Made by a program: the position numbers and the translations under genes
The notes under the pieces: generated by a model
Told to the model about the DNA's origin: nothing
What the model saw: only the letters and a program-made list of their open reading frames with translations
The model's database searches: none
Source of the DNA: Bacteroidota bacterium
GTDB lineage: Bacteria > Bacteroidota > Ignavibacteria > Palsa-1295
Direction: 5' to 3'
Length of the DNA stretch: 45,353 nt
Assembly: GCA_021324685.1 (NCBI GenBank)
Contig: JAJPIQ010000018.1
Location: forward strand, 1-45,353
Shown: piece by piece, positions 27,178 through 38,202 of the stretch
Numbering within the stretch: the first letter of the stretch is position 1
Layout of the letters: each line of letters begins with the position of its first letter

Positions 27178-30100
27178 ATGAAAAAGATTCTCGGCCTCGA
27201 CATCGGCACAAATTCGATTGGCGGCGCACTGATCGAACTCGATGATAAAAATTATGGCGAAGCAGGAAAGATTCTCTGGATGGGCAGCCGGATCATTCCC
27301 ACCGATACGAATTTGCTTCGGCAGTTCGAGACCGGCCAAAAGCTAAATTCCGGCACAACTTCAACTCCTGCTGCGGAACGAAGGGCGAAGCGAATGGCGC
27401 GCCGGATTAAAGAACGCTATGTTCTTCGACGCACACGACTTATACGCGCAATGAAGGTACTGGGCTGGCTCGATACCGAGTTCCCGGAAGATTTTAAGAA
27501 ATATTTCGACTCATTGGGCGAACAAACACACGAAGGAAAAACCTATCGAATCAGCGATGCGCTTTCTTTTTCAGAAGCTACCGTTCGAGAGGCAACAAAG
27601 TTACTCGGCGTTCCCTACCGAGAAAATAAGAAACGAACGTCATCGCAAAAGGCGCGAGTCAAAGTTTACGATAAACTTGTCGTACCAGAGGACTGGATTG
27701 TTTGGTATCTTCGAAAAAAGGCGCTTTCCGAACGAGTTACTAAATCCGAATTTGCGCGCATTCTTTATATGATGAACCAGCGGCGCGGGTTCAAGAGCGG
27801 CAGGAAGGATTTTAAAGAGCAGGGCGAAGAAAACGTGCTGCGGCAGTGGGTCGAGTTAGTCACGATTCAATCGGTCACAGAAGATAGCGATTACAAACCT
27901 GGAAAGGACGGAAAAAAACGATACCTCCTTATGGGGCACGGCGAAGAGAAGAATCGTGATTATACATGGGACGCAAAGCGATACAAAATGCCGGATTGGC
28001 AGGGCAAGTCGTACACACTTTTGCTTAGCGAGAAATTTGATGGGAAGAAATGGAAGTTCCTTACACCGCAAAACCCTACAGCGGATAACTGGAGCTTACA
28101 GATGGTATCGCTGGATAACCAACTCGACAAATCCGGGGATCATCCAGGGGAATTTTTCTTCCACCATTTAGCGACCGATAAAAACTACAAAATTCGCCAG
28201 CAGGTCGTTAAGAGGAAGAGGTATCAGGATGAACTGCGGACCATTTGGACCAAACAGCAAGAGTTGTGGGACGACGATCCCTCACCGGATAACCCACAAC
28301 TCGGAGACGCTTCGAAGCTGGAAGAACTTGCACGGACTCTTTATCCGGCGCAAAGCAAATTCGGCGGCCCGAAGTACAAAGAAATTGTCGCGAACGATTT
28401 GTTTCACGCAATTGCGGACGATATTATTTATTATCAGCGGGATTTGAAGTCCCAGAAAGATTCCGTTTCCGGTTGCCGGTACGAGAAACTATACTTTATT
28501 AAAAAAGGAGATACGCGATCTGTCGGGCGCAAGGCGGCGCCGATTTCTTCTCCGGAATACCAGGAGTTCCGAATCTGGCAGGACATTCATAATATCCGTG
28601 CGATCGAGAAAGAAGCGGTACGCACGAACGAAATTTTACCTGACAACGGCCAAAAGCAAGCACTTTTCCAATTTTTCGAAACACATGAATCGGTCTCTGA
28701 AAACGACATCCTGAAAATAATGGGATTGTTGCAGGAGAAGAAAAAAGGCGCTGAATCGAATTATAAAATCAACCTTTTTGCAAACCGCACTTCCCTTAAA
28801 GGGAATGAAACAAAAGACCGCTTTCGAAAACTGTTCCAGAAGCATAGCTGGAGCGACGGATTATCGCTTCTCGATAACCGAGACATCCTTAACCATTTTT
28901 GGCATATCGCTTACTCCATACCGCAGTACGACACAGATTCCAATACTGCAAATGGTCGTGCGAACGCTTTGAAAAAATGGGCAAAGCAAAACGTAAAGAA
29001 CTCTGATCGGAAGGAAATTGCTTCGATTGGTGAAGTTCCGGTACCGGTCGTCAAAGCAATATCCATCATGCCGGATTTCCCGGATGGATATGCGGCTCTC
29101 AGTCTCAAAGCGATCCGAAAGCTTCTCCCGCTAATGAGGATTGGGGATTGGGAATGGAAGAATATAGATGAAAGTACGCAAAAGCGAATCGACCATGTGC
29201 TCTCGATTGCTTCGGACCGTACAAAGATTAAGCATGAGACCGATACCGATACGTATGTCGATACCACGACCGGCGAAATTCTCGAAAAACAGGTCTATCA
29301 GTATATTCGTAAGCACGGCTTTACCGACCGTAACCAATTTCAGGGATTGCCGATGTATATGGCTGCTTATGTTGTCTATGGCCGTCACTCGGAACAGGAA
29401 GAAGTTCCAAAGTACAACACGCCAGATGACATCGACGTGATGAAGCTCGTTCCCAACCGCGCATTCAATAATCCCATCGTCGAGAAGGTCATCCGTGAAA
29501 CGCTTTGCATCGTGCGCGATCTCTGGAAATCGAATTCGGACTGGAGGCCGGACGAAATTCATATCGAACTGGCGCGGGAACTCAAGAAGAATGCCAAAGA
29601 GCGCGAAGAAATTACAAGAAGAAATAAATCGGACCGCGAAGAAAAAGAACGAATTCGTGTTATTTTGCGAGAGCTATTGAACGATCCCCATGCCTTCGCC
29701 GGAAACACAAGACCCAATCCCGATGCTCCTAAAGACGTTGAGAAATTCCGCCTTTGGATGCAGCAGGCTGAAAATAAACCGGAAGAATTGTACGAGCCGT
29801 CTGGGAATCAAGTCCAGCGATATCGCTTATGGCTTGAACAAGAATGTTTCTCTCCATACACAGGCAAACCAATTCCTCTTAGCAGACTTTTTACAGAAGA
29901 GTATGATGTTGACCATATTTTGCCCCGTTCCCGCATCAAAATGGATGGTATGGATAATCTCGTCGTTGTCGAGCATGACGTAAACCGGCCTGGAGATGGA
30001 GACGGAAAGGGAAATGATACGGCAGCGCAATATATTAAGCGTATGGCTGGAAGGAAAGTTAAAGGCCATAGTATTCTTACTTGGGATGACTATGAGGCGC

Positions 30101-31920
30101 GCTGTAGGCGTACTTACAAGGGATCGAAACTAAAAAATCTTTTACGCGAAGATGTTCCAGATGATTTTATTCTGCGCCAATTAAATGATACTCGCCACAT
30201 CACCCGCAAAGTGTCGCAAATGCTCAAACCTATTGCAAAAGCGCAGGAAGGTCTTGTCTGTACCACTGGTTCAATTACGAGCGATCTCAAAAATCTTTGG
30301 GGTTTGAACGATGTCTGGAAGGATATTCTCAAACCACGATTCGAGCGTCTGGAACGACTCGGGATGGGTCAGTTCATTTTCCCGGATGACGAACATCCCG
30401 GGCGTTATCATTTCCGGGTTCCCGATCAGCCGGACTTTGAGTCTAAAAGGATCGACCATCGTCATCACGCACTCGATGCGCTCATTATCGCAGCCACGAC
30501 GAGAGGTCACGTTAAATATTTGAACACGCTAAATGCCGAAGAATCAGATACAGAATTAAGACAGCTTCGAACATCGCTCGTTGTCGATGGAGCGACGCCA
30601 CGAAGTCGCAAATTCAAGACGCCCTGGAAACAAGAGGATTTTTGCAGAGAAGCGAAAAAAAATCTAGAGGGAATCATCGTAAGCTTCAAACAGCAGAAGC
30701 CGCCAATCTCTAAACCTTCGAATAAGCGGCAGAAGTGGATCGAAAAAAATGGAAAATGGCAGAAAGAGCTTATCGAGCAGAAGCCAAACTCACGCTGGAT
30801 TGCGGTGCGCCGTTCCATGTTTAAGCAGCCGCAAGGCGTGATACTTCTAAAAATGAAGCGCATTTTAAACGAGAAGCAATTTCTTAGTGCATTTGAAATC
30901 GAACTTGCCTACATGAAGGCCCAGGACACACCCAATCAGCGGACTGCATCGTATATTTACGATAAGAGCGCTCGGCAAACCGTTCGAGATATTATCTTTA
31001 AAACGAATGGCGATCTTGCCGCAATCAAAAAACATCTGAGAACCAATGGCTTGACTAACTTATCGGGTGAAAAAATTACTCAAGTTCGAATCGCGGAATT
31101 CGAGGAATATGCCGCAAAACGCGTGGCTGTCGATGGTTCGTTTACTGAGGATAAAATCGATAAGATTCCATACGCTGCGGCTGCGCGCATAAATACAGAT
31201 AAAAAGTTTACGGAAAAAGAAATGGAAAAGTATGCAACTCGAGCATTAGAGAACCCTTATGCGCCAAGAGAAAATGTGCGAACTTTATCAACTAAATTAC
31301 GTGCTCACTTACTGGCTTTTGGTGGAGATCCCAAGCAAGCTTTTGCTTCTCCTGAAGGGTCCGAAGCTCTGACAAAGAGTATAGGGCAACCAATCCATAA
31401 GATCACTACGTTCGAGAATTCCTCAAGCCCTAAGTATGGCAACGCGTTCATTGAATCCGATAATAACCCTTACTTTATTATTTTCGAAAACCGCGAGACC
31501 AAGAGCCGTTCGGATAAGGGTTATAAAATGCATTCGATGTCCATCGTTGAGGTAGTGAATCGGAAGCTTCAGGGTCTTCCAATTGTCGAAGAACCCGAGG
31601 CGTATAGGGTCATTCTCCTCAAAAATGATGATTTTGTGTACGTTCCTACGACTGACGAGATTGTTAACCCGGCATTAATTCCCTGGTCAAATGCCAACAA
31701 ACTGGCACCTCGATTATATCAGGTATCGAAATTCACTGGCACCGACTGTTATTTTATTCGCCACGACATCTCAAAGTTAATTACACAAGGGGAGCTAGGA
31801 ACTCAAAATTGTCTTCAAACCACAATGAACGAAGGAGAAGAGAAAGTGTACATCAAGAATGTATGCATTAAAATTACAATTGATCGGCTCGGTAATATAG
31901 CACCTGTTCTAGAACGATGA
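27178..31920 (+). CDS. cas9: CRISPR-associated endonuclease Cas9, type II-C
   Basis: RNA-guided double-strand DNA nuclease. At 1580 aa it is much longer than compact II-C enzymes (about 1000-1100 aa) but close to large Cas9s known from Bacteroidota/Ignavibacteria. RuvC-I: LGLDIGTNSIG with Asp8. Arginine-rich bridge helix at ~60-90 (AERRAKRMARRIKERYVLRR). RuvC-II: IHIELARELKKN with Glu797. HNH: YDVDHILPRS with His913 and Asn in the NLVVVEHDVNR region. RuvC-III: DHRHHALDAL with His1097 and Asp1100. All catalytic residues are present. About 480 residues follow RuvC-III and should hold the wedge and PAM-interacting domains. Starts about 17 nt from the divergent tracrRNA. Its TGA overlaps the cas1 ATG (ATGA). 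No cas4 or csn2 is present, hence II-C. No frameshift or missing motif seen; it looks functional. Confidence 0.97.
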   Translation: MKKILGLDIGTNSIGGALIELDDKNYGEAGKILWMGSRIIPTDTNLLRQFETGQKLNSGTTSTPAAERRAKRMARRIKERYVLRRTRLIRAMKVLGWLDTEFPEDFKKYFDSLGEQTHEGKTYRISDALSFSEATVREATKLLGVPYRENKKRTSSQKARVKVYDKLVVPEDWIVWYLRKKALSERVTKSEFARILYMMNQRRGFKSGRKDFKEQGEENVLRQWVELVTIQSVTEDSDYKPGKDGKKRYLLMGHGEEKNRDYTWDAKRYKMPDWQGKSYTLLLSEKFDGKKWKFLTPQNPTADNWSLQMVSLDNQLDKSGDHPGEFFFHHLATDKNYKIRQQVVKRKRYQDELRTIWTKQQELWDDDPSPDNPQLGDASKLEELARTLYPAQSKFGGPKYKEIVANDLFHAIADDIIYYQRDLKSQKDSVSGCRYEKLYFIKKGDTRSVGRKAAPISSPEYQEFRIWQDIHNIRAIEKEAVRTNEILPDNGQKQALFQFFETHESVSENDILKIMGLLQEKKKGAESNYKINLFANRTSLKGNETKDRFRKLFQKHSWSDGLSLLDNRDILNHFWHIAYSIPQYDTDSNTANGRANALKKWAKQNVKNSDRKEIASIGEVPVPVVKAISIMPDFPDGYAALSLKAIRKLLPLMRIGDWEWKNIDESTQKRIDHVLSIASDRTKIKHETDTDTYVDTTTGEILEKQVYQYIRKHGFTDRNQFQGLPMYMAAYVVYGRHSEQEEVPKYNTPDDIDVMKLVPNRAFNNPIVEKVIRETLCIVRDLWKSNSDWRPDEIHIELARELKKNAKEREEITRRNKSDREEKERIRVILRELLNDPHAFAGNTRPNPDAPKDVEKFRLWMQQAENKPEELYEPSGNQVQRYRLWLEQECFSPYTGKPIPLSRLFTEEYDVDHILPRSRIKMDGMDNLVVVEHDVNRPGDGDGKGNDTAAQYIKRMAGRKVKGHSILTWDDYEARCRRTYKGSKLKNLLREDVPDDFILRQLNDTRHITRKVSQMLKPIAKAQEGLVCTTGSITSDLKNLWGLNDVWKDILKPRFERLERLGMGQFIFPDDEHPGRYHFRVPDQPDFESKRIDHRHHALDALIIAATTRGHVKYLNTLNAEESDTELRQLRTSLVVDGATPRSRKFKTPWKQEDFCREAKKNLEGIIVSFKQQKPPISKPSNKRQKWIEKNGKWQKELIEQKPNSRWIAVRRSMFKQPQGVILLKMKRILNEKQFLSAFEIELAYMKAQDTPNQRTASYIYDKSARQTVRDIIFKTNGDLAAIKKHLRTNGLTNLSGEKITQVRIAEFEEYAAKRVAVDGSFTEDKIDKIPYAAAARINTDKKFTEKEMEKYATRALENPYAPRENVRTLSTKLRAHLLAFGGDPKQAFASPEGSEALTKSIGQPIHKITTFENSSSPKYGNAFIESDNNPYFIIFENRETKSRSDKGYKMHSMSIVEVVNRKLQGLPIVEEPEAYRVILLKNDDFVYVPTTDEIVNPALIPWSNANKLAPRLYQVSKFTGTDCYFIRHDISKLITQGELGTQNCLQTTMNEGEEKVYIKNVCIKITIDRLGNIAPVLER

Positions 31921-32978
31921 TCCGCCGCACGCTCTATTTCGGGAACCCTGCGTATCTTTCGACGAAAGACAATCAGCTTGTCATCGAGCGCGATACCCCC
32001 TCCTCTGGAAGAGGAGGGGGAAGGGGGTGGAGTTATGGAGAGGATGTCGAGGACACCACCCCCCGGCCCCCTCCTCTTCCAGAGGAGGGGGAGAGTGTGA
32101 TGCGCGTTCCTATCGAAGACATCGGCTGCATCCTGCTCGATCACTGGCAAATCACAATTACGCAGCCGCTTTTGTATGCTCTGCTGGCAAAGAATATCGC
32201 GGTCGTAAGCTGCGATGAGCGGCACATGCCCGCGGGTTTGTTTTTACCGCTGGCCGCAAGTGGTGTACAGCCCGAACGATTCAAATACCAGCTTCGGTCT
32301 TCCAAGCCGATGCGAAAAAACCTATGGGCGCAAACTATTGAATATAAAGTAAAAAATCAGGCGTCGCTCCTTGCCCTTGCCGGAAAACCATCGTCCAATA
32401 TGGTGAAGTGGTCGGCAGAAGTTCGTTCCGGAGACGCTCGGAACCTCGAAGGGCGCGCGGCGGTCTATTATTGGGCCAATATTTTCCCCGAAGCGCTGAA
32501 TTTTCGGCGCGACCGGTACGGCGAACCGCCCAATAATCTTCTAAATTATGGCTATGCGATCTTACGGGCGTTGACGGCACAGGCGCTCGTCGCCAGTGGA
32601 ATGCTTCCCACGCTCGGAATTCACCATCGTAACAAATACAATGCGTACCCCTTGGCCGATGATATTATGGAACCCTATCGCCCGTTCTTAGATGCAATTG
32701 TACTGGAAATCGTCCGGAACGGTGAGGACTTTACGGAACTATCGAAATCGATCAAGCAACAACTTCTTTCGCTGGCAACAGTGGACGTTATGATGAGAGG
32801 TAAACGGCGGCCGTTACACGTCGCATTACAATACACGGCTGCTTCCCTCGCCTTTTGTTTTTTGGGTGAGCGCCGCAGAATTTTATATCCCGAGTTCCCA
32901 TTCGGAACGGAAACCAATTCCCCTACACTTTTACGGGATTGGAGAAATACCCCCTCCTCTGGAAGAGGAGGGGGTTAG
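31917..32978 (+). CDS. cas1: Cas1 integrase with in-frame repeat insertion and repeat-derived C-terminus
   Basis: Metal-dependent spacer integrase. It overlaps cas9 by 4 nt. Conserved type II Cas1 sequence: RRTLYFGNPAYLSTKDNQLV, VPIEDIGCILLDHWQITITQ, catalytic Glu178 (NLEGRAAVYYW), His236/237 and Asp248/249 (GIHHRNKYNAYPLADDIMEP). Two oddities. Residues ~27-58 (TPSSGRGGGRGWSYGEDVED, then TTPRPPPLPEEG) come from a 96-bp inverted-repeat element lying in the loop between two N-terminal beta-strands; as 32 codons it keeps frame. The C-terminal residues (NTPSSGRGGG) and the TAG stop come from the left arm of the DUF559 element, so the native end has been replaced. The catalytic domain is intact, so activity is plausible but unproven. 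Confidence 0.94.
   Translation: MIRRTLYFGNPAYLSTKDNQLVIERDTPSSGRGGGRGWSYGEDVEDTTPRPPPLPEEGESVMRVPIEDIGCILLDHWQITITQPLLYALLAKNIAVVSCDERHMPAGLFLPLAASGVQPERFKYQLRSSKPMRKNLWAQTIEYKVKNQASLLALAGKPSSNMVKWSAEVRSGDARNLEGRAAVYYWANIFPEALNFRRDRYGEPPNNLLNYGYAILRALTAQALVASGMLPTLGIHHRNKYNAYPLADDIMEPYRPFLDAIVLEIVRNGEDFTELSKSIKQQLLSLATVDVMMRGKRRPLHVALQYTAASLAFCFLGERRRILYPEFPFGTETNSPTLLRDWRNTPSSGRGGG
31996..32091 (+). repeat. 96-bp inverted-repeat (MITE-like) element inside cas1
   Basis: Two 25-nt arms, exact reverse complements of each other (31996-32020 and 32067-32091), each itself a hairpin (CCCCCTCCTCT, GGA, then AGAGGAGGGGG). Inward of each arm is a GGGGGTGG-type extension (32021-32032; 32055-32066), leaving a 21-nt centre. 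The arms match those of the DUF559 element between cas1 and cas2. No clear target-site duplication. Length divisible by three, no stop codon in the cas1 frame. Confidence 0.9.
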
Positions 32979-33441
32979 GGGGTGGAGCGCTTCAGGAATG
33001 AAAAAAGATCGCACACGGACCGCAATCCGAAGGAAACTCCGCAACAGCGCGACGTTTGCGGAACGCATTTTATGGTACTCGCTCCGCGGAAGCCAACTCG
33101 ACGGACGAAAATTTACGCGGCAAAAAGGAATCGGCCCATACATTGTGGATTTCTACTGTGCCGAGGAGAAGCTTGCGATCGAACTGGACGGATCGGTCCA
33201 TGACGAGCCCGAGGTGCAGCGTTACGACCAGGCCCGCGAAGAATTTCTATGCCGCGAAGGCGTGAAGGTCTTGCGGTTCAAGAACGATGAGTTTCTTGAG
33301 AATGGAGATCGCGTGATCGCCGCGATTCGGAAGATATGGTCGGGCCGCGAACGCCCGGTTACCGTGCGGCCGGAACGATCGCGGAAACATCGTTCCCAGA
33401 AGACTCCACCCCCTAACCCCCTCCTCTTACAGAGGAGGGGG
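32950..33441 (+). mobile_element. DUF559 endonuclease element bounded by 38-bp inverted repeats
   Basis: The left arm is 32950-32987 and the right arm 33404-33441. As inverted repeats they match at 37 of 38 bases. Each begins with a palindromic CCCCCTCCTCT...AGAGGAGGGGG hairpin and continues TTAGGGGGTGGAG. The 416 nt between them is almost entirely the DUF559 gene. A partial extra copy of the right hairpin (33457-33476) joins it to cas2. I call it mobile because of the gene-plus-terminal-repeats layout and the related copies nearby; the mechanism of movement is not known and no transposase is present. Confidence 0.7.
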
Positions 33442-33480
33442 AACAGTAGTCGCAATCCTGTTACAGAGGAGGGGGAATAA
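32998..33480 (+). CDS. DUF559 (Vsr-like PD-(D/E)XK) endonuclease inserted between cas1 and cas2
   Basis: A 160-aa protein of the DUF559 family, related to very-short-patch-repair endonucleases. Core: RRKLRNSATFAERILWYSLR, GSQLDGRKFTRQKGIGPYIV, DFYCAEEKLAIELDGSVHDE, VKVLRFKNDEFLENGDRVIA. The candidate nuclease residues are the Asp of IVDFYC and Glu/Asp of IELDG. The ATG at 32998 was chosen because it sits just inside the left repeat arm and begins the conserved MKKDRTRTAIRRKLR; the frame extends upstream into cas1 only through repeat sequence. The last ~25 residues (TPPPNPLLLQRRGNSSRNPV...) are a translation of the right repeat and likely not functional. Its TAA overlaps the cas2 ATG by one base (TAATG), so it is translated within the cas operon. 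Not a recognised cas gene. Confidence 0.9.
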   Translation: MKKDRTRTAIRRKLRNSATFAERILWYSLRGSQLDGRKFTRQKGIGPYIVDFYCAEEKLAIELDGSVHDEPEVQRYDQAREEFLCREGVKVLRFKNDEFLENGDRVIAAIRKIWSGRERPVTVRPERSRKHRSQKTPPPNPLLLQRRGNSSRNPVTEEGE

Positions 33481-33818
33481 TGCAGAATTCACGATTTAAC
33501 GAATACCGAACATTGTGGACCATGGTGCTCTTCGATCTTCCCGTCAAAACGAAGAAAGACCGGAAGGAATACGCAAAGTTCCGAAAGTCGCTTCAGAAAG
33601 ACGGCTTCGAACTCTTTCAATTTTCGACCTACGTGCGACACTCCTTTAGCCGGGAGAATGCTGACGTGCATAAAAGGCGTGTAAAGTACGCTCTGCCTCC
33701 GAAAGGCAAAGTCGGGATTCTGACGATCACCGATAAGCAATTCGGCTTAATGGAGCTATTCAACGGTCAATCTCAGATGGAAGCCGAACGACCGCCTCAG
33801 CAATTAGATATGTTCTAA
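33480..33818 (+). CDS. cas2: Cas2, type II-C
   Basis: Small ferredoxin-fold partner of Cas1 in the adaptation complex. The 112-aa chain is typical of type II-C Cas2: RFNEYRTLWTMVLFDLPVKT with the conserved Asp19, KKDRKEYAKFRKSLQKDGFE, STYVRHSFSRENADVHKRRV, GILTITDKQFGLMELF, and the terminal PPQQLDMF. The start ATG overlaps the stop of the inserted DUF559 gene. The chain itself is undisturbed by repeats; a decayed repeat copy starts 3 nt after its stop. Confidence 0.95.
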   Translation: MQNSRFNEYRTLWTMVLFDLPVKTKKDRKEYAKFRKSLQKDGFELFQFSTYVRHSFSRENADVHKRRVKYALPPKGKVGILTITDKQFGLMELFNGQSQMEAERPPQQLDMF

Positions 33819-33820
33819 CT

Positions 33821-33866
33821 CCCCCTCCTCAGTAGCGAAGCGCAAGAAGAGGGGGCTCGGGATGGA
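33821..33866 (+). repeat. Decayed solo copy of the DUF559-element terminal repeat
   Basis: Begins CCCCCTCCTC and ends GAGGGGG followed by CTCGGGATGGAG, the same outline as the element arms, but the hairpin centre is expanded by AGTAGCGAAGCGCAAGA. It lies immediately after cas2. Confidence 0.7.
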
Positions 33867-33894
33867 GTGCACGTGCCCCCGCTCCAATTTTTTT
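33851..33894 (+). terminator. Possible terminator of the cas operon
   Basis: GGGGGC (33851-33856) can pair with GCCCCC (33875-33880), with GTGCAC nested inside, and a run of seven T follows at about 33888. The stem overlaps the decayed repeat. The 6-nt gap to the T-run makes it uncertain. Confidence 0.4.
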
Positions 33895-33945: not shown

Positions 33946-36347
33946 ACTGTAACCATAAAACTCGAAAAACAATCTGAAAGCAGATCACAGCTCAGTTCGG
34001 GTTGTCACTCCCGGACATCATACTGTAACCATAAAACTCGAAAAACAATCTGAAAGCAGATCACAGCGGACAATGGCGTCCGTGCCATAGGCGGCCGACT
34101 GTAACCATAAAACTCGAAAAACAATCTGAAAGCAGATCACAGCTCCGTTCGGGTTGTCACTCCCGGACATCATACTGTAACCATAAAACTCGAAAAACAA
34201 TCTGAAAGCAGATCACAGCGATCTTCGGCCAATACTCGCGGAGTCGATGACTGTAACCATAAAACTCGAAAAACAATCTGAAAGCAGATCACAGCCGACA
34301 ACTCTATATGCCTTGTCAATCATTTACTGTAACCATAAAACTCGAAAAACAATCTGAAAGCAGATCACAGCGCCTTCGAGTGCGTCGTGTGACTTCGGTC
34401 TACTGTAACCATAAAACTCGAAAAACAATCTGAAAGCAGATCACAGCCCGTGGGCCGGGGTGCCGCTCGCGGTAACGACTGTAACCATAAAACTCGAAAA
34501 ACAATCTGAAAGCAGATCACAGCGGGAACTCCGGCCTGTTCCATCGCGAGGCCACTGTAACCATAAAACTCGAAAAACAATCTGAAAGCAGATCACAGCT
34601 CCAGCCTTTCAGGACCGGCAGATAATCGGACTGTAACCATAAAACTCGAAAAACAATCTGAAAGCAGATCACAGCTATTCTCGACGCTTGCGCTTGCGGC
34701 ATACGACTGTAACCATAAAACTCGAAAAACAATCTGAAAGCAGATCACAGCCAAATCGCAATAACCCGATGATCTGGCCTTACTGTAACCATAAAACTCG
34801 AAAAACAATCTGAAAGCAGATCACAGCGACGTATTGACGTAGTATTAAGCGGATGTAACTGTAACCATAAAACTCGAAAAACAATCTGAAAGCAGATCAC
34901 AGCCCTTTCGCCTTAGAGTGATTCCGAGAAAATACTGTAACCATAAAACTCGAAAAACAATCTGAAAGCAGATCACAGCCGGATCGTGCGGATATTTATT
35001 TGGCATCTTACTGTAACCATAAAACTCGAAAAACAATCTGAAAGCAGATCACAGCTGGCATGCACAAATCCCCGTCCGGGTCGTGACTGTAACCATAAAA
35101 CTCGAAAAACAATCTGAAAGCAGATCACAGCGGTAAATGGCGTAATGACACATTCACATATACTGTAACCATAAAACTCGAAAAACAATCTGAAAGCAGA
35201 TCACAGCGCCCCGCATCGCTGGCGCGGCTCGTTCCTTACTGTAACCATAAAACTCGAAAAACAATCTGAAAGCAGATCACAGCCATCGGTCGCACCCACA
35301 GCGACTCCTTCTCACTGTAACCATAAAACTCGAAAAACAATCTGAAAGCAGATCACAGCTTAACATGTTGGTAGTGTTTTGATTTTAAGACTGTAACCAT
35401 AAAACTCGAAAAACAATCTGAAAGCAGATCACAGCGCGGAGGTCGGACATTAATGCAGAGTAGAGACTGTAACCATAAAACTCGAAAAACAATCTGAAAG
35501 CAGATCACAGCGAGTTTTCCGTCCGCTGTCGTATATGCTTCACTGTAACCATAAAACTCGAAAAACAATCTGAAAGCAGATCACAGCTTGTCGGTGAGAG
35601 TTCCCAGCCTTTTGCGTACTGTAACCATAAAACTCGAAAAACAATCTGAAAGCAGATCACAGCCCATAGTTCCCGGGCTTCTGGCGACATTCCACTGTAA
35701 CCATAAAACTCGAAAAACAATCTGAAAGCAGATCACAGCATTCGTCGCGCGTTGCATCGGCGACCATGAACTGTAACCATAAAACTCGAAAAACAATCTG
35801 AAAGCAGATCACAGCGTCCGAAGTGTCCTGATAATGTCCGCCAAGACTGTAACCATAAAACTCGAAAAACAATCTGAAAGCAGATCACAGCATAAAATTG
35901 GTCGGAGCGCGATGTGGTCACACTGTAACCATAAAACTCGAAAAACAATCTGAAAGCAGATCACAGCTTCTTCGTCTGTCGTGGCGGCAGTTCCGATACT
36001 GTAACCATAAAACTCGAAAAACAATCTGAAAGCAGATCACAGCTCGCGTCGACCGGCAGATAGGTGAGATTATACTGTAACCATAAAACTCGAAAAACAA
36101 TCTGAAAGCAGATCACAGCCGAGCGTGGCGCGCGGCACAAGTACCTGGAACTGTAACCATAAAACTCGAAAAACAATCTGAAAGCAGATCACAGCGGATA
36201 GCTCTTCGCGCGTGATGGTACCCGAACTGTAACCATAAAACTCGAAAAACAATCTGAAAGCAGATCACAGCGCCGGGGCCAGCATCCGAGGATCGGATTA
36301 GACTATAACCATAAAACTCGAAAAACAATCTGAAAGCAGATCACAGC
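33946..36347 (-). CRISPR. CRISPR array, 32 repeats of 46 nt and 31 spacers of 30 nt
   Basis: The unit recurs every 76 nt without exception: (36302-33946)/76 = 31. On the plus strand the repeat begins ACTGTAACCATAAAACTCG and ends GAAAGCAGATCACAGC; on the minus strand it begins GCTGTGATCTGCTTTCAGAT. Pairing with the tracrRNA implies crRNAs are read from the minus strand (guide followed by GCTGTGATC...). All repeats I read are identical except the last (36302), which has ACTATAACC for ACTGTAACC, marking the old end. Spacers 1 (33992-34021) and 3 (34144-34173) differ at one base. At the minus-strand 3' end of each repeat, TTGTTT-N15-TACAGT could act as a per-repeat promoter, as in some II-C arrays; this is inference. 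Spacer targets cannot be identified without a database search. Confidence 0.98.
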
Positions 36348-36410: not shown

Positions 36411-36540
36411 TAAGCCATCGGGGGCTTACGCCCCCCCTACTATTATGCCGTCCCTTCGGGACTCGGGGCCAGCGTTCGGTCTTGCGACCGGTGCTTGAAA
36501 CCACCGGCTACTCTTTTGTCGTCCCTTCGGGACTTAGCGG
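36411..36540 (-). repeat. Palindromic repeat block, right border of the CRISPR-Cas locus
   Basis: On the minus strand: AGTCCCGAAGGGACGAC, GAGTAGCCGGTGG...CACCGGT, CCCCGAGTCCCGAAGGGAC, GGCATAATAGTAGGGGGG, and the hairpin GGGGGC-GTAA-GCCCCC. This is the order found on the plus strand at 26835-26946, so the two blocks are inverted relative to each other. The 3' end of the neighbouring membrane-protein gene runs into it and takes its TAG stop from it. Confidence 0.7.
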
Positions 36541-38202
36541 CGCTTTACGCCGATAGAACCAGGCAGTGAGGAGGATTAGGATGGTGAGCGCGCTTAGCCA
36601 GGTACCGGCGATTTGCGGGGCGCCGGGTTGCATTGTGAGCGCAAGAGTATAATTCCCGGCGGGAAGCGATGCTTCCACGCGACCCATTGCGTTCATGCGG
36701 AGTGGGATATTCGTTCCCGAGGATGTCGCGGCCTTCCAGGTGGGCCAATAGGTGCGGTCGAACGGGAAAGAGCGTGGTGCGGTAAGGGAAACCGCATACT
36801 GGGAACCGAGCGGCTCATGACGGATTTCCTGGATCGGCTCATGACGGATTTCCTGGATCGGCTCATGACGGATTTCCTGGATCGGCTCATGACGGATTTC
36901 CTGGATCGGCTCATGACGGATTTCCGCGACCCGCTCCCCTGGAGATAACGGCTCCGTTTTTTCGTCCACAGTTTTTGGGAGCGAAAGTGTATATTCGCCC
37001 GGAGTGTCCCATTCCGCGTTCTGAACTTCTATCGCCGGCGTCGAACGATGGTGTACCGACCATTTTACTTCGTAGTAACCCGAAACGATCACGAGCGCCC
37101 CGACCGCTATTATGAGATATGTTCGTTCCCGTGCGCCCAGCGTAAGATAAGCAAGCGGAAATGCAAGGCAGAAGAGTGCCGTAAAGCGGACCGGATATAC
37201 GATCGCATCGAGGACATGCCCGTTCCACAGCGGATCGGCAATCCACGGAAGTTGGAAGACCGCGGCGAGCGCCAGCAGTCCGGGAACCGCTTTGTTGGCG
37301 GACTTGCGCGCGACCGCAATCGAAGCAATTCCGACGATAAGAATGATCGAGGGAAGCAAAATGCTTTCGGTACGGCTCTGCGTGAGGAAATATAAGGGGT
37401 ACCGGAATTCATTCGGGTACCGAAAAACATTTCCGTGCTGAATAAGGGGTAGATAGGCAAATAACGGCACGAGATAAAACGACGTGGCGAGCGCTCCCAA
37501 TACGCTCGCAAGTGCGATGCGTGAAATCGTTCCGGTTGTTAACGGGACCCTGAGCAATACATAGGGAACGAACGCGATCGCGACAATCGCTGTCATCGGG
37601 ATGCTCGTGACGATTAACGCGGCCCAGGAAACGGCGAGCAGCACGAGCGGCCTGGTGCTCGTCCGGTTATTTACGGCGTCGCTTCGGATCTTTTCGACGG
37701 CAAGAAAGATGAGCGGGATCCAAATAAACGAAACGTGCTCGCTGAATGCCGAGCGCAAATACGCGTCCACGAATCGGTATGGGAACCCCGCATACAGCAG
37801 GGCAGCGGACCATCGCTCCAGTTTCGATTCGCTGAACACTTCGCTGTACCCATAAAACGATAGCGCGCTCGCCACGGTCGCAAAAAATGTGACCGACTGA
37901 AGAAGCCCGTTCGGAGAAAGGGAATGAAAATAAAAGTGGACCGTCCATGCGGCAAAGTAAGCGAACGGAGGGTAAAAGTAAAAGATCGGAGCGCCGAAGC
38001 CGTGCTGAAAATCGCTGAAAAAGCGAGGATAAAAAATTCCGGCGTCCTTGAGCTTATTGAATTCCGCAATCCATTGCAGGTGCAGGACCGCATCGTCGCC
38101 GATCACCGGCATCCCAGCCAGCGAGGGAACGATCATCAGCAGAAACAAGGCCAGGGCAAGGACAAAAAACAAGGTCTCTGCAAACCGGTTCTTATCGATC
38201 AT
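36508..38202 (-). CDS. Multi-pass membrane protein, PTPS-related (PF10131-like)
   Basis: A 564-aa inner-membrane protein with about ten to twelve hydrophobic segments. The N-terminal part HLQWIAEFNKLKDAGIFYPR and FSDFQHGFGAPIFYFYPPFA matches the pattern of the '6-pyruvoyl-tetrahydropterin synthase-related' membrane family, structurally akin to GT-C glycosyltransferases; the short acidic motif GDDAVLH early in the chain would be the catalytic-type loop. Residues ~450-490 hold a tandem octapeptide EIRHEPIQ (four times plus EIRHEPLG). One C-terminal helix (LSALTILILLTAWFY) ends the protein. The last eight residues (SPEGTTKE) and the stop are encoded by the adjacent palindromic repeat, so the original C-terminus may be altered. 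Ten nt separate it from the upstream mtgA stop, suggesting an operon. Substrate unknown. Confidence 0.75.
   Translation of the reverse strand: MIDKNRFAETLFFVLALALFLLMIVPSLAGMPVIGDDAVLHLQWIAEFNKLKDAGIFYPRFFSDFQHGFGAPIFYFYPPFAYFAAWTVHFYFHSLSPNGLLQSVTFFATVASALSFYGYSEVFSESKLERWSAALLYAGFPYRFVDAYLRSAFSEHVSFIWIPLIFLAVEKIRSDAVNNRTSTRPLVLLAVSWAALIVTSIPMTAIVAIAFVPYVLLRVPLTTGTISRIALASVLGALATSFYLVPLFAYLPLIQHGNVFRYPNEFRYPLYFLTQSRTESILLPSIILIVGIASIAVARKSANKAVPGLLALAAVFQLPWIADPLWNGHVLDAIVYPVRFTALFCLAFPLAYLTLGARERTYLIIAVGALVIVSGYYEVKWSVHHRSTPAIEVQNAEWDTPGEYTLSLPKTVDEKTEPLSPGERVAEIRHEPIQEIRHEPIQEIRHEPIQEIRHEPIQEIRHEPLGSQYAVSLTAPRSFPFDRTYWPTWKAATSSGTNIPLRMNAMGRVEASLPAGNYTLALTMQPGAPQIAGTWLSALTILILLTAWFYRRKAPLSPEGTTKE
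36812..36930 (-). repeat. 24-bp in-frame tandem repeat, four full copies plus one partial
   Basis: The unit GGCTCATGACGGATTTCCTG GATC (plus strand) starts at 36812, 36836, 36860 and 36884, followed by a partial copy at 36908. It encodes EIRHEPIQ on the minus strand. Copies are identical, so the expansion is recent or kept uniform. Confidence 0.95.

Follow-up and report, generated by a model that had tools for sequence, protein, structure and literature searches.

Among described repeats, those closest in shape to the ones reported here are the intrastrand triplex motifs (TMs) of Holder et al. (2015; PMC4666352), represented in E. coli K-12 by 23 TMECO copies. The available part of that paper describes a C-rich stem, a short loop, a G-rich stem, a loop of ~3 nt (TTA/CCG types) and a mirror G-rich third strand, as well as inverted pairs; it demonstrates the triplex in vitro for TMECO, links TM repeats, those of E. 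coli included, to genome instability, and, as far as its text is available, reports that no mobility activity was found around the E. coli sites. Small tailed palindromes, their inverted pairs and a gene flanked by palindromes also characterize the REP/REPIN-RAYT systems, and small repeats lying in frame inside proteins are described as in-frame palindromic elements in Rickettsia (both in the available text of PMC3733652) and as RU repeats in enterobacteria (PMC2759123, likewise in part); unlike the units described below, neither the Rickettsia elements nor the RU repeats are accompanied by a nuclease gene in those portions of the two papers. DUF559 proteins, in turn, have been assigned to the EDxHD type in connection with an intein in Thermosynechococcus (PMC9403480), occur with a transposase in Legionella segments considered possible recombination hotspots (PMC12308824), include the Caulobacter protein VsrA, a proposed mismatch-repair enzyme for which links with both a cytosine methyltransferase and DNA damage are described (PMC12907096), and are mentioned in PMC8861277. 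Among the papers listed by our literature search, whose coverage includes few subscription journals, none tied DUF559 to TM repeats or to insertion in frame outside an intein.

In an Ignavibacteria genome (G000), a DUF559 gene enclosed by inverted TM-type arms lies within a type II CRISPR locus (cas9, cas1, cas2, array). The relevant features of the window, by which we mean the whole 45,353-nt stretch of DNA analysed, are as follows:

31917 to 32978, forward strand: cas1, host gene, type II (TIGR03639).
31996 to 32033, forward strand: left arm of a pair that encloses no gene (MITE-like), lying in frame within the N-terminal part of cas1; third-strand match 11/11.
32053 to 32092, reverse strand: right arm of that pair, also within cas1; third-strand match 11/12.
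32950 to 32988, forward strand: left arm of the DUF559 unit, a TM-type motif and the source of the cas1 stop codon; third-strand match 10/11.
32998 to 33480, forward strand: DUF559 (EDxHD-type) nuclease gene, 160 aa, PF04480 with E 7.7e-34 by profile search.
33403 to 33442, reverse strand: right arm, an inverted TM-type motif; third-strand match 11/12; in-frame reading ...TPPPNPLLLQRRG.
33456 to 33478, no strand assigned: extra, partial repeat copy directly before the cas2 start, from an inverted-repeat search.
33480 to 33818, forward strand: cas2, host gene (TIGR01573).
33820 to 33868, no strand assigned: degenerate palindrome of similar letters directly after cas2, from an inverted-repeat search (33820-33834 only) and by eye.

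A previous, sequence-only reading of this DNA had placed a nuclease gene between cas1 and cas2 within 38-nt arms, with the left arm supplying the cas1 stop codon, and these details hold: the arms at 32950-32987 and 33404-33441 are complementary at 37 of 38 positions (97%), each is itself a hairpin, and the DUF559 stop overlaps the cas2 start in the letters TAATG. Three features had escaped that reading: the second pair of arms inside cas1, the partial copy at 33456-33478, and the mirror-symmetric third strand. The right arm is translated by the last ~25 codons of the DUF559 gene, and the translated-repeat tails that the same reading had ascribed to DUF559 proteins are real, recurring in the fused frames described below. 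In each arm, a hairpin is followed by a short loop and then by purines in mirror order to the 3' strand of the stem; in the left arm these are the hairpin CCCCCTCCTCT-GGA-AGAGGAGGGGG, the loop TTA and the third strand GGGGGTGGAGC. With third-strand matches of 11/11, 10/11, 11/12 and 11/12 in the four window motifs, this is the TM geometry of Holder et al. (PMC4666352, in part), assigned here from the shape of the sequence. The window stem (CCCCCTCCTCT) differs from that of TMECO (CCCTCNCCC), and the TMECO consensus CCCTCNCCC...GGGNGAGGG is absent from the window motifs, which thus have the TM shape in another subtype; a nuclease gene also lies between one pair of them, whereas no mobility activity is reported around the TMECO sites. 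Mirror tails are common around this gene family: among 311 purine-type hairpins surrounding 101 DUF559 domains, 40.5% had one (a set-level figure), compared with 2.7% for shuffled tails.

No TM motif beyond the four arms of the two pairs reached the finder threshold in the 45-kb window. A search of G000 with the repeat core returned five exact copies, four of them in the cas1-cas2 locus, and one more with three mismatches, so that this genome is a poor place in which to see dispersal. Profile searches of the window detected no splicing (intein) domains around DUF559, and inspection by eye showed no obvious target-site duplication at either the cas1-cas2 or the rnhA junctions, whose flanks have diverged.

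Close relatives differ in whether and where they carry the gene. We compared G000 with six genomes treated as members of its genus (G001-G006) and with G008 of the same family, and surveyed 26 loci with cas1 and cas2, the window included. DUF559 separates the two genes in only two of the 26, the window and G006 of the same genus (identities of 87% for cas1, 74% for DUF559 and 93% for cas2), and the gene does not look like a cas component. The G001 assembly has no DUF559 match, and its cas1-cas2 spot retains a single solo TM that again supplies the cas1 stop; the repeat therefore either predated the gene or was left by it, and may represent a remnant, not a target. The gene-less pair in the cas1 N-terminus is likewise present in frame in G006 and absent from G001. 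At other sites, G004 and G005 carry DUF559 before rnhA, with arms of the same family as in the window and reading into rnhA in frame, and five sisters (G000, G001, G002, G003 and G006) lack it there; in G003 the gene forms a fusion with the end of recQ, with an inverted-arm score of 77, and no other genus member has DUF559 at recQ among the matches listed (two of five for G004). The arms thus flank DUF559 at unrelated loci within one genus, and sister sites without the gene exist both at cas1-cas2 and before rnhA, as the sequence-only reading had anticipated for a mobile element. In G008, a DUF559 match lies on the opposite strand just past the recQ match, and G042 holds two copies at different loci that are 91% identical and have near-identical arms. 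The second DUF559 gene of the window genome (contig C4) has no TM by our test; just upstream of it, at ~1253-1394, there is instead a hairpin pair of other sequence (CCCTCTCCCCAC...GTGGGGAGAGGG) with 35-nt arms that are 91% complementary. Two further observations concern this genus: G006 (contig C247) carries a PF05635 gene at the phosphatase-rnhA junction where G004 and G005 have DUF559, which makes this junction a hot spot for small elements of different kinds, and G002 has 13 TM-like repeats and no DUF559 match, for which gene loss, a missed relative or another mover are alternative explanations.

The association between DUF559 and TMs extends through the class. In a set of 60 class loci, drawn from the upper part of the match list with several contig-edge matches left out, 42 DUF559 domains had a TM within 350 bp (23 of them on both sides), compared with two of 600 control windows; 18 of the 60 had none by this test. 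The finder used for these association counts extends stems greedily and misses the left arm of the window, which was re-scored without greediness. Inverted arms scoring at least 30 flanked 33 of 59 class loci (one of the 60 was dropped at a contig edge, and the window is not among the 59); at 2360 control positions within these loci the rate was 0.55%. Arms scoring at least 44 were found at 14 of the 59 and at no control position; a further 21 DUF559 domains had arms of at least 30 in 11 cases and lacked them in ten. Among 40 loci from the phylum and the class, selected for long frames, TMs were near DUF559 in 27 (controls, 4/390) and arms of at least 36 were present in 18 (controls, 4/1560). 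Plasmids of proteobacteria, cyanobacteria and Deinococcus show the same pattern: in 14 loci chosen for variety out of 43 records, TMs lay near DUF559 in nine (controls, 3/140), a figure obtained with both TM finders, which may pick different loci, and arms of at least 36 in seven (controls, 0/560). Arm orientation, judged by eye, is variable. Position controls and shuffled tails rule out coincidental palindromes.

Set against two other small gene families, this proximity is specific to DUF559. In the same genomes, none of 20 Y1_Tnp loci (three with flanks shortened by contig ends) and none of 20 PF05635 loci had a TM nearby (Fisher, 42/60 vs 0/40, 4e-14), which rules out that any small mobile gene has one; both families often come with inverted arms too, though of different kinds, scoring at least 30 in 6/19 and 11/20 loci, respectively. 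Dispersed TM-like repeats are a different matter: a gapped hairpin-and-tail pattern matched 437 times in 47 of 149 genomes (the reversed pattern, 0), and DUF559 occurs in 40 of the 47 genomes with such repeats and 54 of the 102 without, compared with 43/47 and 76/102 for Y1_Tnp and 46/47 and 69/102 for PF05635. Since all three families track the repeats about equally well, co-occurrence at the genome level is unspecific and says little; we dropped it as evidence for the link, and the case rests on physical proximity. As an aside, the PF05635 genes (four-helix-bundle, 23S_rRNA_IVP; present in 115 of the 149 genomes) were often flanked, at the loci sampled from 20 genomes (L258-L277), by short tandem units of AGTAACGAGT-, GAGTATTG- and AACGGAGAACGG-like kinds arranged in inverted arrays, with arms of at least 30 in 11 of 20 compared with nine of 200 controls; here, it seems, another small gene family is associated with a kind of repeat specific to it.

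DUF559 frequently sits inside other genes. Fifteen of the 60 class loci lie within open frames of more than 300 aa, and of 20 fused frames prepared, 18 were scanned against Pfam, which recovered DUF559 in all 18 and a host family in 17. The hosts include UvrC, MetH, HsdR, HsdM, LeuRS (at two sites), RecG, HemF, HisF, RNase HI, RecQ, methylmalonyl-CoA mutase, type ISP and Eco57I-type enzymes, peptidase M23 and DNA methylases; fusion is at the host start for HemF, HisF and RNase HI, and at the host end for RecQ. The joints between host and nuclease are translated arms (e.g., PLTPLLEGEG, LSLGEGKGG), and no intein part was seen in most of the fused frames. By eye, some sites recur, for example LeuRS site 1 (L155, L156, L170 and L177) and RecG (L173-L176), through either shared descent or repeated entry. 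Two copies do reside in inteins (L121, within a DNA methylase, and L191; TIGR01443), where the usual role of a nuclease is homing. In two HsdR frames (L081 and L104), repeat-like peptide arrays (SSPALLPEGEG...PSPFGRGLGEGVEG) stand beside the insertion. Across 13 pairs of DUF559 sequences, pN/pS ranged from 0 to 0.43, with pS near saturation in many, and these sequence comparisons point to evolution under constraint.

As judged from sequence and predicted fold, the closest characterised relative of DUF559 is the homing endonuclease I-Bth0305I. Profile searches matched 3hrl (E 1.4e-33) and 3r3p ('mobile intron protein', I-Bth0305I; E 1.9e-6), and an AlphaFold model (pLDDT 73.6, from an alignment of five sequences) matched 3hrl and I-Bth0305I with TM-scores of 0.77-0.78 by target length and 0.49-0.50 by query. 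The Vsr-like nuclease proposed by the sequence-only reading stands at the superfamily level, but not more closely, Vsr itself giving only a weak fold match (E 1.6). In 33 DUF559 sequences, E55, H61, D70 and D44 are invariant and D57 is conserved in at least 90%; the window copy carries all four E-D-H-D residues, which we take to be the EDxHD motif. The units resemble EDxHD homing endonucleases in this homology, and differ from them in that the gene lies between TM palindromes and is often fused to a host in frame, with no intein part found.

The TMECO repeat of E. coli, presumably the one also named Box C, belongs to a species that has its own DUF559 gene: ycjD of K-12 has a TM-type motif ~165 bp away on the fabI side, with three mismatches to a TMECO-like pattern. 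The ycjD locus query was covered to at least 80% in 3362 of 5426 E. coli genomes, and the gene is present in only part of the species; no clean empty site was found, three strains without ycjD carrying a TetR-RND efflux operon beside fabI instead (L254-L257, fabI-sapF interval). Carriage by phages appears rare, in that the window protein as query matched two of 50,697 phage records, and scans of viral contigs, which reach only close relatives, found none.

TM-flanked DUF559 units are very probably mobile, in agreement with the sequence-only reading and on a broader scale than it suggested, with many hosts, plasmids and other phyla involved; their presence at so many places in bacterial genomes points to a type of mobile DNA that is widespread but has drawn little notice. 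As to mechanism, we favour, with moderate confidence, a mobile nuclease element with TM ends whose nuclease drives its spread by homing. Such an element would consist of an EDxHD/DUF559 gene between two inverted TM hairpins; the nuclease would cut a recipient site or the DNA next to it, a site that might be a solo TM already in place, and the break would be repaired from an element-bearing copy with the TM arms serving as homology, so that gene and arms are copied in, as in homing. The triplex or hairpin shape itself may matter in this process, and TMs found without the gene, singly or in pairs, would represent remains of the element or its non-autonomous derivatives. Free of stop codons in the frames used, the arms allow the element to fit into tight junctions (cas1/cas2, phosphatase/rnhA) or in frame into hosts, whose products would presumably stay unspliced. 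The physical association and the variable presence of the gene are shown here, whereas the cutting and the break-driven copying are inferred. We count in favour of this reading the TM proximity (42/60, and likewise in the long-frame and plasmid sets), the lack of TMs near Y1_Tnp and PF05635 loci, presence and absence among sisters, the solo TM of G001, the in-frame hosts, the G042 copies, pN/pS, the 3r3p match and I-Bth0305I fold, the intein-borne copies and the dispersed TM-like repeats; we count against it the 18 of 60 loci without a TM, the ten of 21 without arms, the variable arm orientation, the C4 copy without a TM, G002 with its lack of DUF559, the unspecific genome co-occurrence, the Y1_Tnp genes of G000 that could act in trans, the possibility that the G001 repeat is a remnant, and the repair function proposed in Caulobacter.

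Several of these points can be read differently. Hairpin-and-tail ends, inverted pairs, gene-less pairs and dispersed copies all resemble REP/REPIN sequences, and hairpin-directed transposition, in which DUF559 or a Y1 transposase acting in trans would nick single-stranded TM hairpins of a REP/RAYT-like unit, with TM solos and pairs corresponding to REPINs, would account for them; Y1_Tnp is available in 119 of 149 genomes, with six matches in G000, and tracks TM-like repeats among genomes about as well as DUF559 does. Yet the flanked gene here encodes an EDxHD-like protein rather than an HUH enzyme or Y1 transposase, and the palindromes at Y1_Tnp loci are of other kinds (arms of at least 30 in 6/19) with TMs near none of 20, and we consider transposition unlikely. 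Somewhat less likely again is that TMs multiply by recombination or slippage, DUF559 being either carried along or a repair nuclease acting on TM structures: the reported instability of TM sites, with no mobility activity found nearby in E. coli (PMC4666352), the repeats of G002 and the unspecific co-occurrence would all fit, but not a nuclease gene that varies in presence, lies in frame at many loci and is under apparent constraint.

Two further readings concern the function of the nuclease. The position of DUF559 and its translational coupling in two genomes had suggested to the sequence-only reading a nuclease recruited to spacer acquisition; with the gene at only two of 26 cas1-cas2 loci, and like units beside rnhA, beside recQ and inside unrelated genes, an accessory adaptation role is very improbable, and we reject it on distribution. 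A very-short-patch-type mismatch repair enzyme with coincidental repeats, for which the link of Caulobacter VsrA to a cytosine methyltransferase and DNA damage speaks (PMC12907096, in part), is scarcely credible as a full account given the proximity of TMs (42/60 vs 2/600), which is no coincidence, and the weak Vsr match; a domesticated branch of DUF559 could nonetheless perform mismatch repair.

A wider and more tentative proposal is also possible: DUF559 nucleases may be the missing mobiliser of G/C-rich TM repeats across bacteria, with autonomous TM-nuclease-TM units and non-autonomous TM progeny that cross phyla and live unspliced in host proteins. A nuclease gene between TM repeats makes the origin of such repeats directly testable in E. 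coli, since K-12 has both ycjD and TMECO copies. Provided that translation of the fused frames yields the proteins predicted, enzymes such as LeuRS and RecG would show that a nuclease element can be maintained in them without splicing, and some proteins annotated as 'DUF559-fused', together with proline/glycine-rich linkers, would be insertions and not functional domains.

Elsewhere in the window, the Cas9 gene (27178-31920) encodes 1580 aa, with the TIGR01865 match stopping at residue 1348 and the C-terminal remainder without an assignment, and an ORF on the reverse strand (36508-38202) contains several repeats of the tandem peptide EIRHEPIQ near its C-terminus. The CRISPR array (33946-34600 and on) has a period of 76 nt, and two stretches of it, one from 33946 and one from 34098, share 99% identity over 123 nt, which suggests that a spacer is repeated.
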